Source of the DNA: a virus
Direction: 5' to 3' (one strand)
Virus record (IMG/VR): IMGVR_UViG_3300022214_000018
Coordinates: 1 to 25,042 of that record
Length of the DNA stretch: 25,042 bases
The translations under genes and the position numbers were made by a program. The notes beneath the pieces are model-generated. The model saw nothing but the letters and a program-made list of their open reading frames with translations, did not search any database and was not told where the DNA came from. Shown here in pieces: positions 3,307 to 11,599 of the stretch. The first letter of the stretch is position 1. The number at the start of each line of letters is the position of its first letter.

Positions 3307-3642
3307 ATGCCTGACAACGAATTAGAGCGCGTCGTACAAGTTCTTTTGGCGAATGAGAAAAAGAATTTCGTTCAGAGAATTTTGCGCCCAGATAAATACC
3401 CGGCTATTTCGCTTGGGGATAAAAAAGTAGGGACTCATTTGATGGCGTGGGGAGAGGCAGATGGAAAGTATTATGTTTACCCAACGATTGTCTATCGAGA
3501 CGGAAAATTAGAGCGCCTTAATAGCAGAGACGCATGGAAATACGCCGAAGAAACCGGAGAAAGGATAGAGTTTTCTTCCCCCGAGGGCGCCTCCTGGTTT
3601 AGCCAAAAATACAAACTGGTTTGGCCAAGGGAGGACCAGTGA
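3307..3642 (+). CDS. Small protein with a phage polyvalent-type domain, inserted between terL and portal
   Basis: A 111-residue soluble protein. The middle and C-terminal parts (KYPAISLGD, THLMAWGEADG, VYPTIVY, DAWKYAEETGERIEF, then ASWFSQKYKLVW) follow a pattern I associate with a short domain recurring in phage proteins and in very large phage polyproteins: a strand pair ending in P-T-hydrophobic, a helix with A-x-x-x-TGE, then a helix ending in an aromatic/basic tail. I cannot name the family firmly or give its function. The gene starts one base after the terL stop. Flanking 12-bp repeats suggest it was added between terL and portal, which are otherwise usually adjacent. Confidence 0.7.
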   Translation: MPDNELERVVQVLLANEKKNFVQRILRPDKYPAISLGDKKVGTHLMAWGEADGKYYVYPTIVYRDGKLERLNSRDAWKYAEETGERIEFSSPEGASWFSQKYKLVWPREDQ

Positions 3643-3659
3643 TTCTTGATGATGACGTG

Positions 3660-3671
3660 ACGGGATATTGA
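3660..3671 (+). repeat. Direct repeat copy 2 (just before portal)
   Basis: A perfect second copy of ACGGGATATTGA, whose final A is the first base of the portal ATG (TGATG). In the frame of its TGA, the preceding bases read V-I-L-D-D-D-V before T-G-Y-stop, resembling a relic of a terminase C-terminus. A GTG at 3639 could open an 11-codon leader ORF ending here and couple translation to the portal gene. Confidence 0.8.
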
Positions 3672-5857
3672 TGGAACAAACATTCAAATACGATCTTGAA
3701 AAGCTCCAAGACGCAGACAACATCAACGAGTTTCTGACAGAAGACCAGTCCAACGAGATTGGCCGCGCTGTCTGTGAAGGCTATGAGATAGACGAACAAT
3801 CCCGTCTTCAGTGGAAAGACAGGATGCAGGCCGCTAACGAATTAGCCCTTCAGATCGTCAAGGAAAAGAGCTTTCCTTGGAGGGGTGCTGCCAATGTCAA
3901 GTTCCCTCTGGTCACGATAGCCGCACTACAGTTCGCCTCAAGGGCTTATCCTGCTCTAGTGAAAGCGCCCGACTTGGTGAAATACCGAGTGCAGGGCGCA
4001 GACGAAGACGGCAAGAAAGCGGCAAGGGCCGCAAGAATCTCTCGTCATATGTCGTATCAATGCCTTGACGAAGACGAACAGTGGGAAGAGGATCACGACA
4101 AGCTGTTGCTTGTTTTGCCCATAGCCGGAACGGCGTTCAAGAAGTCTTACTACGACAAAACCACAGACATGAATTGCTCAAGGTTGGTTCTCGCCAAGAG
4201 CCTGTGCGTTAACTATTACACCAAGTCACTTGACCGATGCGAAAGAAAAACAGAGATATTCGAGCTTTACGAGCGCGAAATCAAAGAGCGCCAGCTAAGG
4301 AATCTGTACTCTGAAATCAAGGACTTAGGCCCCGCTGACTTAGAAGAGCAAACAGAAGAGGCCAAAAGAGAGGGCAGAACCCAGCCCATAGACGACAAAG
4401 CCCGCCCAAGGACATTGTTAGAGCAGCACTGTTACCTTGACCTTGACGGTGACGGGTATCCAGAGCCTTACGTCGTGACTGTAGACAAGTCTTCTCAGAA
4501 GGTCTTCAGGATCGTTTCCAGGTTCAAGGAAGTCGTTACCGAGCAGTCGGTAGAGATCAAAGAGCTTCAGGACAAGATTCGCGCTTTAGCAGAGGGCGTA
4601 GAACAGCCACAGCCCGGCACCCCGCCCTCAGAAGAGCAGCTATTCAAGCTAAGGCAGGTGGAAGCCACCATTCAGGCCATGAATGAGCGCGTCAAGCAAC
4701 TAGCGGAAGAAAAGCCCAAAGTCCTTAGAATCGAGGCCATTGAGTATTACACCAAGTACGGGTTCATCCCAGCGCCAGATGGTGGGTTCTACGACATAGG
4801 GCTCGGGATTCTTTTAGGGCCTTTGAACGCATCAGTAAATACCCTGATAAACCAGTTACTCGATTCTGGCGCGATGCAAACCGCCTCTACGGGGTTTATC
4901 GGGAAGGGCGCAAGGATCAAGGGCGGGAAGTTGTCATTCTCGCCAAACGAGTGGAAACGGGTAGACGTAGCAGGCCCTACGTTAAGGGATGCCATTGTAC
5001 CCTTACCGATAAACCAGCCGTCTCCGGTTTTGTTTAATCTGCTTTCATTGCTGATTAACTACACGGAAAGGGTCTCGTCTGTCACCGACACAATGACAGG
5101 CCAGAATCCCGGACAGAACACCCCCGCCTACAACATGTCTGCCATGCTTGAGCAGGGTATGCAGGTGTTTAACGGAATTTTCAAGCGCGTTTACCGATCC
5201 ATGCGGGCAGAGTTTAGAAAGCTATTTGACCTGAACGCGGTCTATCTTGACCAACAGTCCTATTTTGAATATCAGGACGAGCAGGGCTTTGCGGTAAGGG
5301 TTGACTACACCGCCGACAAGAAAGACCTCATTCCCGCCGCCGACCCGAATGCGTTTTCCAATCAGGAAAAGATGATGAAGGCGCAGATGGTAGCAGAACG
5401 GGCAATGATGGTCCCTGGATATGACCAGACGGTAGTCGAAAAGCGACTACTTGAGGCAATGGACATTCCCAATTCCGATGAGGTTTTCCCGTTAGTGCCG
5501 GAAACGGACGAGCAGGGCAAGCCAACCGGAAAGATGACGCTGAAATTCCCGCCGCAGCCTAACCCGGAGTTTGAGATCAAGCGGGCAGAAGAGCAAAGAC
5601 GTACCCTTGAGTCACAGACCAAGTACGAGCTTCAGGCACAAGAAACGGCATCTAAACTTGCGGTAGACGAGGCGACCATTATCAAGCTAATGGCCGACGC
5701 TGCGGTGGCCGCAGACAAGCCCGCATTGGAAAGGTTGAAGCTGATTGCCGACGAATTGGAAGGCAAGCGAAAAGCAATTATTGATCTAGCAAAGGTAGAG
5801 GAAAGTGCTAAATCCAGAGCAAGTAAACGAGTGGCGGGAAAATCCAGTAACTCTTGA
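3671..5857 (+). CDS. Portal protein (P22 gp1-like)
   Basis: The dodecameric ring at the capsid vertex through which DNA enters and leaves. The 728 residues from ATG 3671 are preferred over an in-frame TTG at 3668. Recognisable features are FPWRGAANVKFPL (about 68-80), the conserved DLDGDGYPEPYVVTV block (257-271), a predicted coiled-coil at about 290-350 and the GLGILLGPLNASVNTLINQ helix region (377-395), followed by LLDSG. SSVTDTMTGQNPG (about 469-481) and a long charged C-terminal helix (about 615-728) resemble the crown/barrel region of P22-like portals. The gene follows the terminase and precedes scaffold and capsid, the expected order. Confidence 0.93.
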   Translation: MEQTFKYDLEKLQDADNINEFLTEDQSNEIGRAVCEGYEIDEQSRLQWKDRMQAANELALQIVKEKSFPWRGAANVKFPLVTIAALQFASRAYPALVKAPDLVKYRVQGADEDGKKAARAARISRHMSYQCLDEDEQWEEDHDKLLLVLPIAGTAFKKSYYDKTTDMNCSRLVLAKSLCVNYYTKSLDRCERKTEIFELYEREIKERQLRNLYSEIKDLGPADLEEQTEEAKREGRTQPIDDKARPRTLLEQHCYLDLDGDGYPEPYVVTVDKSSQKVFRIVSRFKEVVTEQSVEIKELQDKIRALAEGVEQPQPGTPPSEEQLFKLRQVEATIQAMNERVKQLAEEKPKVLRIEAIEYYTKYGFIPAPDGGFYDIGLGILLGPLNASVNTLINQLLDSGAMQTASTGFIGKGARIKGGKLSFSPNEWKRVDVAGPTLRDAIVPLPINQPSPVLFNLLSLLINYTERVSSVTDTMTGQNPGQNTPAYNMSAMLEQGMQVFNGIFKRVYRSMRAEFRKLFDLNAVYLDQQSYFEYQDEQGFAVRVDYTADKKDLIPAADPNAFSNQEKMMKAQMVAERAMMVPGYDQTVVEKRLLEAMDIPNSDEVFPLVPETDEQGKPTGKMTLKFPPQPNPEFEIKRAEEQRRTLESQTKYELQAQETASKLAVDEATIIKLMADAAVAADKPALERLKLIADELEGKRKAIIDLAKVEESAKSRASKRVAGKSSNS

Positions 5858-6080
5858 GCTTAAAAGGCTCGTAGAGATTGAGTTGGATTTAACGCAAAGA
5901 AGCAAGGCCAACGCCTACTCCCCATTTGACGCACAGAAGACCCAAGAGATCCTAGCAGGCTTAAACGGCTGCGAGGACACATGGGGTCTTATCTTAGAAG
6001 CGTTAGACGGAGATTGGGATTATTTCAAGGAAGAAGAGAATGAGTCAAGTAGCACAATTGAAAGCGAAGCTGAAGAATAA
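5805..6080 (+). CDS. Small acidic hypothetical protein downstream of portal
   Basis: A 91-residue protein starting at GTG 5805 inside the end of the portal gene, with GAGGAAA immediately upstream (tight spacing). The N-terminal part (EWRENPVTLELKRLVEIEL) is amphipathic helix. The middle has an alpha-helical LNGCEDTWGLILEAL stretch, and the tail is extremely acidic and serine-rich (EEENESSSTIESEAEE). Small proteins with a similar tryptophan/proline start often sit after phage portals, but I know no established function. The gene overlaps the GroES-like gene by 41 bases. Confidence 0.68.
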   Translation: MLNPEQVNEWRENPVTLELKRLVEIELDLTQRSKANAYSPFDAQKTQEILAGLNGCEDTWGLILEALDGDWDYFKEEENESSSTIESEAEE

Positions 6081-6501
6081 GTCAGGTATTTACCCCTCAT
6101 CCAATCGTGTTCTGGTCAGGCCAGACGTTATTGAGAAACAGGTCACAAGTTCAAGGATTGAGATACCGGATTCGGTATTGGCCAAGTACGAGCAGGGACA
6201 GGCATCGGGCACCCTCATTGCCGTTGGCCCTGATGCGTTTAATCACGTTACCGAAAGGGTATGGCGGGTTCATGACGACCACCTTAAAGAGCTTGTAGAA
6301 GAGCGCATTAAGGGATATTCAGAACCGTTTGCTGACGTTGGCGACAGGATTGCCTTTGCCAAATACTCTGGCCTTAGGGTGAAAGGCGCAGACGGCGAGA
6401 AGTACATTATTCTCAATGACGAAGACATCACCGCAAGAATAAGCGACGACGTGGAATTTACTGATTTAGATACGCGAAAGGGCGTAGGAGTTCAAGGATG
6501 A
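6040..6501 (+). CDS. GroES-like co-chaperonin
   Basis: A 153-residue protein with both halves of the Cpn10 (GroES) fold. The N-terminal block SSNRVLVRPDVIE, the short loop with SRIEIPDS and the strand GTLIAVGPDA align by eye with the GroES strand, mobile loop and GEVLAVGNG strand. The C-terminal FADVGDRIAFAKYSG, EKYIILNDEDITARI matches the VGD...F...EE.LI..E.DILA pattern. The phage T4 co-chaperonin gp31 is the functional precedent: it replaces host GroES on GroEL so that the capsid protein folds. Here about 35 extra residues (NHVTERVWRVHDDHLKELVE onward) sit between the halves where GroES has its roof hairpin. Start ATG 6040 has AAGGAAG 6 bases before it. ATGA overlap with scaffold. Confidence 0.85.
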   Translation: MSQVAQLKAKLKNKSGIYPSSNRVLVRPDVIEKQVTSSRIEIPDSVLAKYEQGQASGTLIAVGPDAFNHVTERVWRVHDDHLKELVEERIKGYSEPFADVGDRIAFAKYSGLRVKGADGEKYIILNDEDITARISDDVEFTDLDTRKGVGVQG

Positions 6502-7235
6502 GCGAGCGAGACTACGAGGCGGAAGCCTCAAAAGAGGGCTGGACGCCCAAAGAAGACTGGAAGGGTCCAGATGAGAAGTGGGTAGACGCGAAGACGTTTG
6601 TAGAACGTGGAGAGAACATTCTCCCGATTGTTAAGAGCAAGCTGGACAAGGTTGAACAACGCCTTGCCGCTGCTGAACAGGCTAACAAGCGATTTGGCGA
6701 GTACCACAAAAAGACGCTTGAACGTGAGAAGAAAGCCCACGAAACCCGTGTTGCGGAGTTGGAATCAAAGATAGCAAAAGCCATTACTGACGGTGATGGC
6801 GATACTTACACCCGCACCAACAGGGAGCTTACTAATCTGAAAAGCTCCGCGCCCGAAGCGCCGCCTGACCAAGACGGTTATAACGCGTTAGCACAGCAAT
6901 GGGTTAACGACAACCAATGGTACACGCAAAACCCCAAGTTGGGGGCGTATGCCGATGGCATTGCGGAGCGCATTCAGGCAGAAGGCTACACGGGCAGAGC
7001 GTATTTTCTGGAACTGACAAAGCGAGTGAAGCAGGACTTCCCAGAGGAGTTCGAGAATCCAAACCGCAAGAAACCCAATGGGGTTGAAGCTGGCGGTGAG
7101 AGAGGCGGTAATCCGAAAGCCAAGAGTTATACAAACCTCCCTGCTGACGCCAAGAAGGCTTGCGATACATTTGTATCGCAGGGCTTTATGACGAAAGAAG
7201 ACTATGTATCACAGTATGATTGGGAGGAAGTGTAA
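6498..7235 (+). CDS. Scaffolding protein
   Basis: The internal assembly template for the prohead. The 245-residue protein is highly charged. It begins with the pattern ASKEGWTPKEDWKGPDEKW and VDAKTFVERGE (about residues 9-39) seen in phage scaffolds, followed by a long predicted coiled-coil (about 45-110, SKLDKVEQRLAAAEQ, EREKKAHETRVAELESKIA). A helical C-terminal part contains YTNLPADAKKACDTFVSQG and the basic/acidic end typical of capsid-binding tails. Position between portal and capsid supports the role. AGGAG lies 7 bases before ATG 6498, and the start overlaps the GroES-like stop as ATGA. Confidence 0.88.
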   Translation: MSERDYEAEASKEGWTPKEDWKGPDEKWVDAKTFVERGENILPIVKSKLDKVEQRLAAAEQANKRFGEYHKKTLEREKKAHETRVAELESKIAKAITDGDGDTYTRTNRELTNLKSSAPEAPPDQDGYNALAQQWVNDNQWYTQNPKLGAYADGIAERIQAEGYTGRAYFLELTKRVKQDFPEEFENPNRKKPNGVEAGGERGGNPKAKSYTNLPADAKKACDTFVSQGFMTKEDYVSQYDWEEV

Positions 7236-10245: not shown

Positions 10246-10869
10246 ATGAAGATAGCAGTACTCGCCAATGGCGAGACAGTACAGCACTTTACCAAAACTC
10301 AGTCAATCAAGCCAAAATACGATGAAGTTTGGGGCTTAAATCAGCAGGCGACATGGAAAGGCATTGAGTTAGACCGATGCTTTATCATGGACGACCTGAA
10401 GCTAAGAATGCCATTTTATGCCGGTTACGACTTTGTTAACTGGCTGAAGCTATACAAAAAGCCCATTATCACATCGAAGGCTTACGAAGAGTGGCCTACA
10501 AGTGAGGCCTACCCGATAAAAGAGGTGGCTCATTACTTTGGCCTGCCTTTAGGGATAGCGATGTACTCCACGGTGGACTATATGATCGCCCTTGCTATTT
10601 ACGAGGGCGCTACTCGTATAGACCTCTATGGGGTCGATATGACAGGAAAGGTCGCGCCTCCTGAGATGTTAATTGGTACGGCACAGTGGATAGGCGCTGC
10701 TCACGCACGGGGTGTTTTCGTCAAGACGTTTGTCGGCAGCATGTTCCAGTACGTGACAAACCCCGGCATTGCGATGGAAGCCGGATTGTACGGATACGCC
10801 CAAAGGCCCCGCATAGAAGACTTGGTTAACACCGAGTATTTCCAGGAGTGGAAAGATGCGAGCGGTTAA
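10246..10869 (+). CDS. MptE/DUF115-like Rossmann protein (possible glycosyltransferase-type enzyme)
   Basis: A 207-residue protein with a Rossmann-type layout: N-terminal strand and loop KIAVLANGETVQHF, then DEVWGLNQ, LDRCFIMDD, and the characteristic STVDYMIALAIYEGA-TRIDLYGVDM (about 108-131). The last matches the S-x-(10)-A-x-x-LG-A-x-x-I-x-L-x-GxD signature of the DUF115/MptE-like and sialyltransferase-like fold. Phages carry relatives whose chemistry is mostly unproven. Placement with a methyltransferase (14-base overlap) suggests a two-step modification of a glycan or nucleotide-linked substrate. It is not a standard virion gene and looks like a moron carried between head and tail modules. 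Start ATG 10246 follows TTAGGAATAG. Confidence 0.68.
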   Translation: MKIAVLANGETVQHFTKTQSIKPKYDEVWGLNQQATWKGIELDRCFIMDDLKLRMPFYAGYDFVNWLKLYKKPIITSKAYEEWPTSEAYPIKEVAHYFGLPLGIAMYSTVDYMIALAIYEGATRIDLYGVDMTGKVAPPEMLIGTAQWIGAAHARGVFVKTFVGSMFQYVTNPGIAMEAGLYGYAQRPRIEDLVNTEYFQEWKDASG

Positions 10870-11599
10870 CCTGCTTACCCACGCCCTAACAAAGAACCCT
10901 AAACGGGTCTTAGATTTGGGCGTAGGCAGGGGACATCACTCAAAAGCCTTTATCGCTAATGGTGCAGAAGTTGTAGGCGTTGATGTCAATGATGCGCCAC
11001 ACAAGCACGACAAGTACAACCACGTTCAGCTTCCGATAGAGATGCTTGAGACAAAAGAAGGCGCTGAGAAATACGACCTTATCTGGTGTTGCCACACGTT
11101 AGAGCATTTGCCTAACGTACAAGCCGCATTAGTCAATATGTCATCTTGGTTGAAAGACGATGGCTGGTTATATATAGCCGTTCCTTCTGACTCACAGGAA
11201 AGGCTACATATAGGCCATCTTACCTTATGGACCCCTGCGCACTTGGTTTATAACCTGATATGCGCTGGATGGGATTGTAAAGAAGCTCTCTGGTATACCA
11301 GCTATGTCACGATAGGTCTTTGTGTGCAAAAGAAGCGCATAAAAGACATGACATGGCGCACTGGAGGCCCGAGCGAAGAGAAGGCGCTTAACGACTACAC
11401 CCCCGTTCCGATGGGACATGACTTCGGTGCTTGGTGGGCTAATAACTGGCCCGTAGATATTCCTACAGGAAGGGTCACAGACCCGCCGCAAGTCACGGCA
11501 GGGGTTTACAGAACAAACTTACCGCCACGGGTGCAACTTGCCTATGGCCCCAATCCGTCGCTCAGGAAAGAGCCCGGAATTTTAACTTCAAAGGAATGA
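10856..11599 (+). CDS. SAM-dependent methyltransferase (class I)
   Basis: A 247-residue protein. The N-terminal half is a class I methyltransferase: motif I VLDLGVGRGHHSKAF (about 18-32), post-I VVGVDVND ending in an acidic residue for the ribose, then YDLIWCCHTLEHLPN (about 75-89), the Methyltransf_11/23 motif, and SWLKDDGWLYIAVPS after it. The C-terminal 80 or so residues are proline- and tryptophan-rich and do not belong to the core fold. No N6-adenine DPPY-type or C5-cytosine PC motif is present, so a small molecule, glycan or protein is a likelier acceptor than DNA bases. Translationally coupled to the preceding MptE-like gene. Confidence 0.83.
   Translation: MRAVNLLTHALTKNPKRVLDLGVGRGHHSKAFIANGAEVVGVDVNDAPHKHDKYNHVQLPIEMLETKEGAEKYDLIWCCHTLEHLPNVQAALVNMSSWLKDDGWLYIAVPSDSQERLHIGHLTLWTPAHLVYNLICAGWDCKEALWYTSYVTIGLCVQKKRIKDMTWRTGGPSEEKALNDYTPVPMGHDFGAWWANNWPVDIPTGRVTDPPQVTAGVYRTNLPPRVQLAYGPNPSLRKEPGILTSKE

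Follow-up and report, generated by a model that had tools for sequence, protein, structure and literature searches.

The stretch of viral DNA analysed here, referred to as the window, is a virus contig of 25,042 bases (IMG/VR virus record IMGVR_UViG_3300022214_000018). A cluster of phage head genes on one strand includes genes for an SU10-type portal protein, a co-chaperonin of the Cpn10/GroES family, a putative scaffold protein and the major capsid protein (Table 1). The original prediction, made from the sequence alone, had placed the co-chaperonin gene between the portal and scaffold genes and had described it as coupled to the latter. The portal gene was confirmed by its protein families, and the stop of the Cpn10 gene and the start of the next ORF were found to share the sequence ATGA (6498-6501). 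The scaffold itself is putative, the name being taken from the position of this ORF and its coiled-coil-like sequence, and no named Pfam or PHROG family was matched. The small ORF between the portal and Cpn10 genes, which is found at the same place in most relatives, matched no Pfam or PHROG family either.

Table 1. Features of the head gene cluster and of the Cpn10 gene in the window.
Feature	Position	Strand	Evidence
Portal protein (SU10-type)	3668..5857	+	Pfam PF23899, E 6.6e-11; PHROG 1216, E 2.3e-18
Small ORF between portal and GroES genes; true start may be later	5805..6080	+	jackhmmer neighbourhood survey
Shine-Dalgarno-like AAGGA, 8 nt 5' of Cpn10 ATG	6027..6031	+	sequence
Cpn10/GroES-family co-chaperonin, 153 residues	6040..6501	+	intact ORF; Pfam PF00166; PHROG 3188; AlphaFold2; Z 11.0
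N-terminal extension, residues 1-14, partly helical in model	6040..6081	+	alignment, AlphaFold2
Mobile-loop segment, residues 31-56 (26 residues)	6130..6207	+	alignment
Mobile-loop tripeptide I-E-I, residues 40-42, replacing GroES I-V-L	6157..6165	+	alignment
Roof segment, residues 64-99 (36 residues; 16 in E. coli GroES)	6229..6336	+	alignment
Roof hairpin strand 1, residues 69-77	6244..6270	+	AlphaFold2 model
Roof hairpin strand 2, residues 83-92	6286..6315	+	AlphaFold2 model
C-terminal extension, residues 137-153, low model confidence	6448..6498	+	alignment, AlphaFold2
Putative scaffold protein, start overlapping GroES stop	6498..7235	+	position, sequence character, kept in relatives
Major capsid protein, 301 residues	8299..9204	+	Pfam PF25209 (Phage_capsid_4), E 5.1e-11; PHROG 371

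Other ORFs in and around the cluster were also recorded. An ORF of 111 residues (3307-3642) lies in the gap between the terminase and portal genes, and among the loci compared a relative of it was seen only in L001, the identical contig, which also carries an identical copy (100%) of the Cpn10 gene. Two ORFs past the capsid region (10246-11599) are not typical head genes, and the ORF at 10856-11599 may, from the way it reads, be a SAM-dependent methyltransferase gene. The capsid gene of several relatives (L098, L009, L118, L100 and L097) is split near its start by roughly at least 1 kb, and the insert carries an ORF for a GIY-YIG-like endonuclease, of which L100 seems to have two. The split in L098 and L009 follows the residues HPKALWP; at this site the capsid gene of the window is uninterrupted. 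No group I intron was detected in the relatives at the Rfam gathering threshold, and only a targeted, looser scan found a full-length match to RF00028 at L098:5147-5954 (E 1.6e-6, 33.2 bits, gathering score 50).

Both domain searches and profile comparison concluded that the product of the 153-residue ORF is a genuine member of the Cpn10/GroES family. Pfam PF00166 covered both ends of the Cpn10 domain (47 bits, cut-off 21.1, E 2.6e-12), PHROG 3188, annotated as co-chaperonin GroES, was matched with an E value of 1.4e-7, and an hhalign comparison of a profile built from relatives of the protein with E. coli GroES gave 98.1%. Because these three matches agree, the assignment is beyond chance. 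The same profile also matched many solved Cpn10 chains, and matches to the NCBIfam GroES models stayed under the cut-offs of those models. The best phmmer rows against the PDB were polyubiquitin, which was dismissed as an artefact in which many sub-threshold repeats are summed. The family, the presence of both Cpn10 ends and the length of 153 rather than about 97 residues had all been read correctly from the sequence.

A survey of related loci was carried out with the capsid protein, not GroES, as the query, and 41 loci were obtained. A Cpn10 gene lay between the portal and scaffold genes in all 26 capsid-found loci that reached both portal and capsid, a few of them near-duplicates. All 15 loci found in the same way in bacterial genomes likewise had one close to the capsid gene. 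Several of these 15 were on long contigs of named Alphaproteobacteria (Zavarzinia, Phenylobacterium, Sphingomonas and Leisingera), suggesting that some such phages probably live as prophages there. In earlier studies, the 13 core genes listed for the related HTVC023P-type pelagiphages included GroES (PMC9599517), and GroES was figured for Roseobacter phages CRP-901/902 (PMC10149686). The constancy of the gene in both sets of loci, together with its core-gene status in HTVC023P-type phages, shows that the Cpn10 gene of the window belongs to a known head module as one of its ordinary, conserved genes.

The fold of a single chain was predicted with AlphaFold2 from a 60-sequence alignment (pLDDT 87.3). 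The model contained a GroES-type beta barrel and the mobile loop, as had been anticipated, and among known structures compared with Foldseek and VIA-align its best matches were GroES chains, with a VIA-align Z of 11.0 to 8wuc_a (94 residues, rmsd 3.2) and of 8.7-9.1 to T4 gp31. Alcohol dehydrogenases ranked lower in VIA-align (Z about 6-7); these matches were attributed to the known GroES-like barrel that they share, and were not taken to indicate function. Viral GroES proteins of 152-158 residues are already present in BFVD, and the length alone is therefore not new.

The location of the extra length was determined in an alignment, split by segment, of 101 different sequences, namely 99 Cpn10s of phage modules, T4 gp31 and E. 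coli GroES. The 56 residues that the window protein has beyond the 97 of E. coli GroES were distributed over the N-terminus (+14), the mobile loop (+5), the roof (+20) and the C-terminus (+17), and the idea that all of the extra length lies in the roof was rejected. The enlarged roof that had been proposed is present as a confidently predicted two-strand hairpin, but the proposed addition of about 35 residues is not: this figure corresponds to the total roof segment of 36 residues, and the net gain is 20. Both strands fell in blocks with pLDDT of about 90-93, and a control protein with a 13-residue roof, from locus L012, was modeled with the same barrel and without roof strands.

Roof segments were mostly 12-22 residues long in the alignment, with 9 residues in T4 gp31 and 26-36 in twelve sequences including the window. 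On the capsid tree, the better resolved of the two trees built, the twelve long-roof sequences fit a single change (support 69/88), and ten of them fall in a clade with 99/98 support, with short-roof sisters nearby. On the Cpn10 tree, which has few columns and poor support, four changes are needed. The long roof therefore probably arose once in the lineage of the window, and it evolves fast, the pairwise identity within the long-roof group being 26% in the hairpin and 56% in the core. A further long roof segment, apparently unlike that of the window, occurs in the Cpn10 at L138:5370-5807, whose contig was binned as a Nanoarchaeia MAG, and possibly represents a second origin. A literature search, which covered few subscription papers, found no paper describing enlarged phage GroES roofs.

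Two readings of the long roof are considered first. The extension may be neutral or near-neutral growth of a loop where the fold tolerates it, serving no particular function; the variable length and sequence of the roof, the unrelated-looking long roof in L138 and the ability of gp31 to function without roof loops (PMC6318259) all agree with this. Nevertheless, the long roof was kept in all 10 sampled members of the 99/98 clade and the hairpin is predicted to be ordered, and we regard neutral growth as possible, though rather unlikely. Alternatively, seven long hairpins might form a docking platform on top of the cap that holds or hands over the scaffold, capsid or portal protein, in line with the original proposal that the insert may bind a structural protein. 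The fixed place of the gene beside the scaffold gene, the ATGA coupling in the window and a single gain within one capsid lineage would fit such a platform. However, conservation within the protein is lowest in the hairpin, which gives no sign of a fixed binding site, its segment varies from 26 to 36 residues inside the lineage, and it is absent from the close sisters L012 and L102. The docking reading is accordingly doubtful, and the proposal of a binding insert was not borne out.

The insert had also been suggested as a possible means of widening the GroEL cage, in the manner of T4 gp31, so that a bulky capsid protein fits. The client of gp31 is gp23, which at about 56 kDa is far larger than the capsid protein of the window. 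The proposal draws on the location of a phage co-chaperonin in a head operon and on the longer mobile loop common to the window protein and gp31. Against it, roof loops are missing from gp31, whose 8% larger chamber was ascribed to a higher mass and to mobile loops that are longer (PMC6318259). The capsid protein of the window has only 301 residues, and capsid proteins are about 300 residues throughout the family, in long-roof and short-roof relatives alike. The roof hairpin of E. coli GroES comprises residues 44-58 and sits uppermost in the dome, where seven copies leave a hole of about 5 Å (PMC5653362), so that lengthening it would not necessarily yield more usable space. Enlargement of the cage by the roof is therefore very unlikely, and the analogy with gp31 fails on this point.

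Given this anatomy, hairpins whose segments exceed that of GroES by about 20 residues have to point upward, point inward or cross one another. It is conceivable, though we consider it improbable, that seven of them come together as an ordered crown, or a plug, above the hole at the centre of the dome, giving a cap tuned to a small capsid protein. If so, the cap would have a new shape, the opposite of the open roof of gp31.

The mobile loop of the window protein reads SSRIEIPDS, which agrees with the original reading of SRIEIPDS in place of GGIVL. At the two outer positions of the I-V-L tripeptide the hydrophobic character is retained, the middle residue is Glu, and the GG preceding the tripeptide is lost. 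Among the 101 sequences IIL, III and IYL dominate, and an acidic middle residue was otherwise found only in L107 (IDI). The loops of L102 (LIHIPD) and L090 (VIELLPD) also have no GG, and they show that a polar residue beside a conserved Ile recurs in the neighbourhood. Lengthening of the loop is general across phage-module Cpn10s, which mostly have 25-26 residues, compared with 21 in E. coli GroES. As judged from the sequence, the mobile loop of the window protein is altered, not lost.

The altered loop (SSRIEI for AGGIVL), together with the missing GG in L090 and L102, would also be expected if the protein no longer worked with GroEL and now had a structural or assembly role as a ring. This is the least credible of the explanations considered, since the flanking Ile residues are retained, loops of the GGIII type occur in most relatives, including L009 with 59% identity, and the loop is about as long as that of gp31.

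We searched for a partner of the co-chaperonin among the relatives. No Cpn60 gene was found in 13 phage records, mostly fragments or records of unstated completeness, whereas 14 of 14 control genomes were positive. As no sampled relative carries GroEL, the likely partner is the GroEL of the host.

Taken together, the results point, with a probability of about 0.82, to a phage co-chaperonin that acts as a heptamer capping host GroEL and assists the folding of proteins from its own operon, chiefly the capsid protein, with the long roof as a lineage-specific elaboration. The heptamer, the binding to GroEL and the identity of the client are inferred for the window protein. Seven subunits would form a ring, the ring would cap the GroEL of the host, and the capped GroEL would help to fold products of the same operon. 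The rare Glu in the middle of the tripeptide and the loss of GG count against capping of GroEL. With low confidence, we suggest that the longer hairpin adds to the dome that the seven roof parts build around the central orifice, and that it leaves the basic cycle unchanged.

Comparison with known systems places the window protein within an existing series. E. coli GroES has the same barrel, mobile loop and roof hairpin, but is 97 residues long, has a short roof and a short mobile loop and carries the IVL tripeptide. The gene order of the window is found in CRP-902, ct2os315 (MW202796) and ct2G2228 (MW202785). In CRP-902 the Cpn10 gene directly precedes scaffold-like, p190-like and capsid genes, and in the other two the order is terminase, portal, small ORF, Cpn10, scaffold and capsid. 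Their co-chaperonins differ from that of the window in sequence (32%, 32% and 31% identity, respectively) and in roof segments of only 20, 8 and 17 residues. T4 gp31 resembles the window protein as a phage co-chaperonin with a similar fold and a lengthened mobile loop, which has 27 residues against 26 in our alignment, and 22 against 16 in GroES by the count of an earlier study (PMC6318259). It differs in that its gene lies outside the head module and in having no roof loops; the window protein shares the longer mobile loop of gp31 and departs from it in the roof (36 residues against 9). These proteins form a natural series of phage GroES with roofs of 8 to 36 residues, the same operon position and capsid proteins of similar size, and the role of the GroES roof is therefore testable with natural variants. 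In conclusion, the long-roof Cpn10 of the window departs only modestly from a strategy already known in phages.
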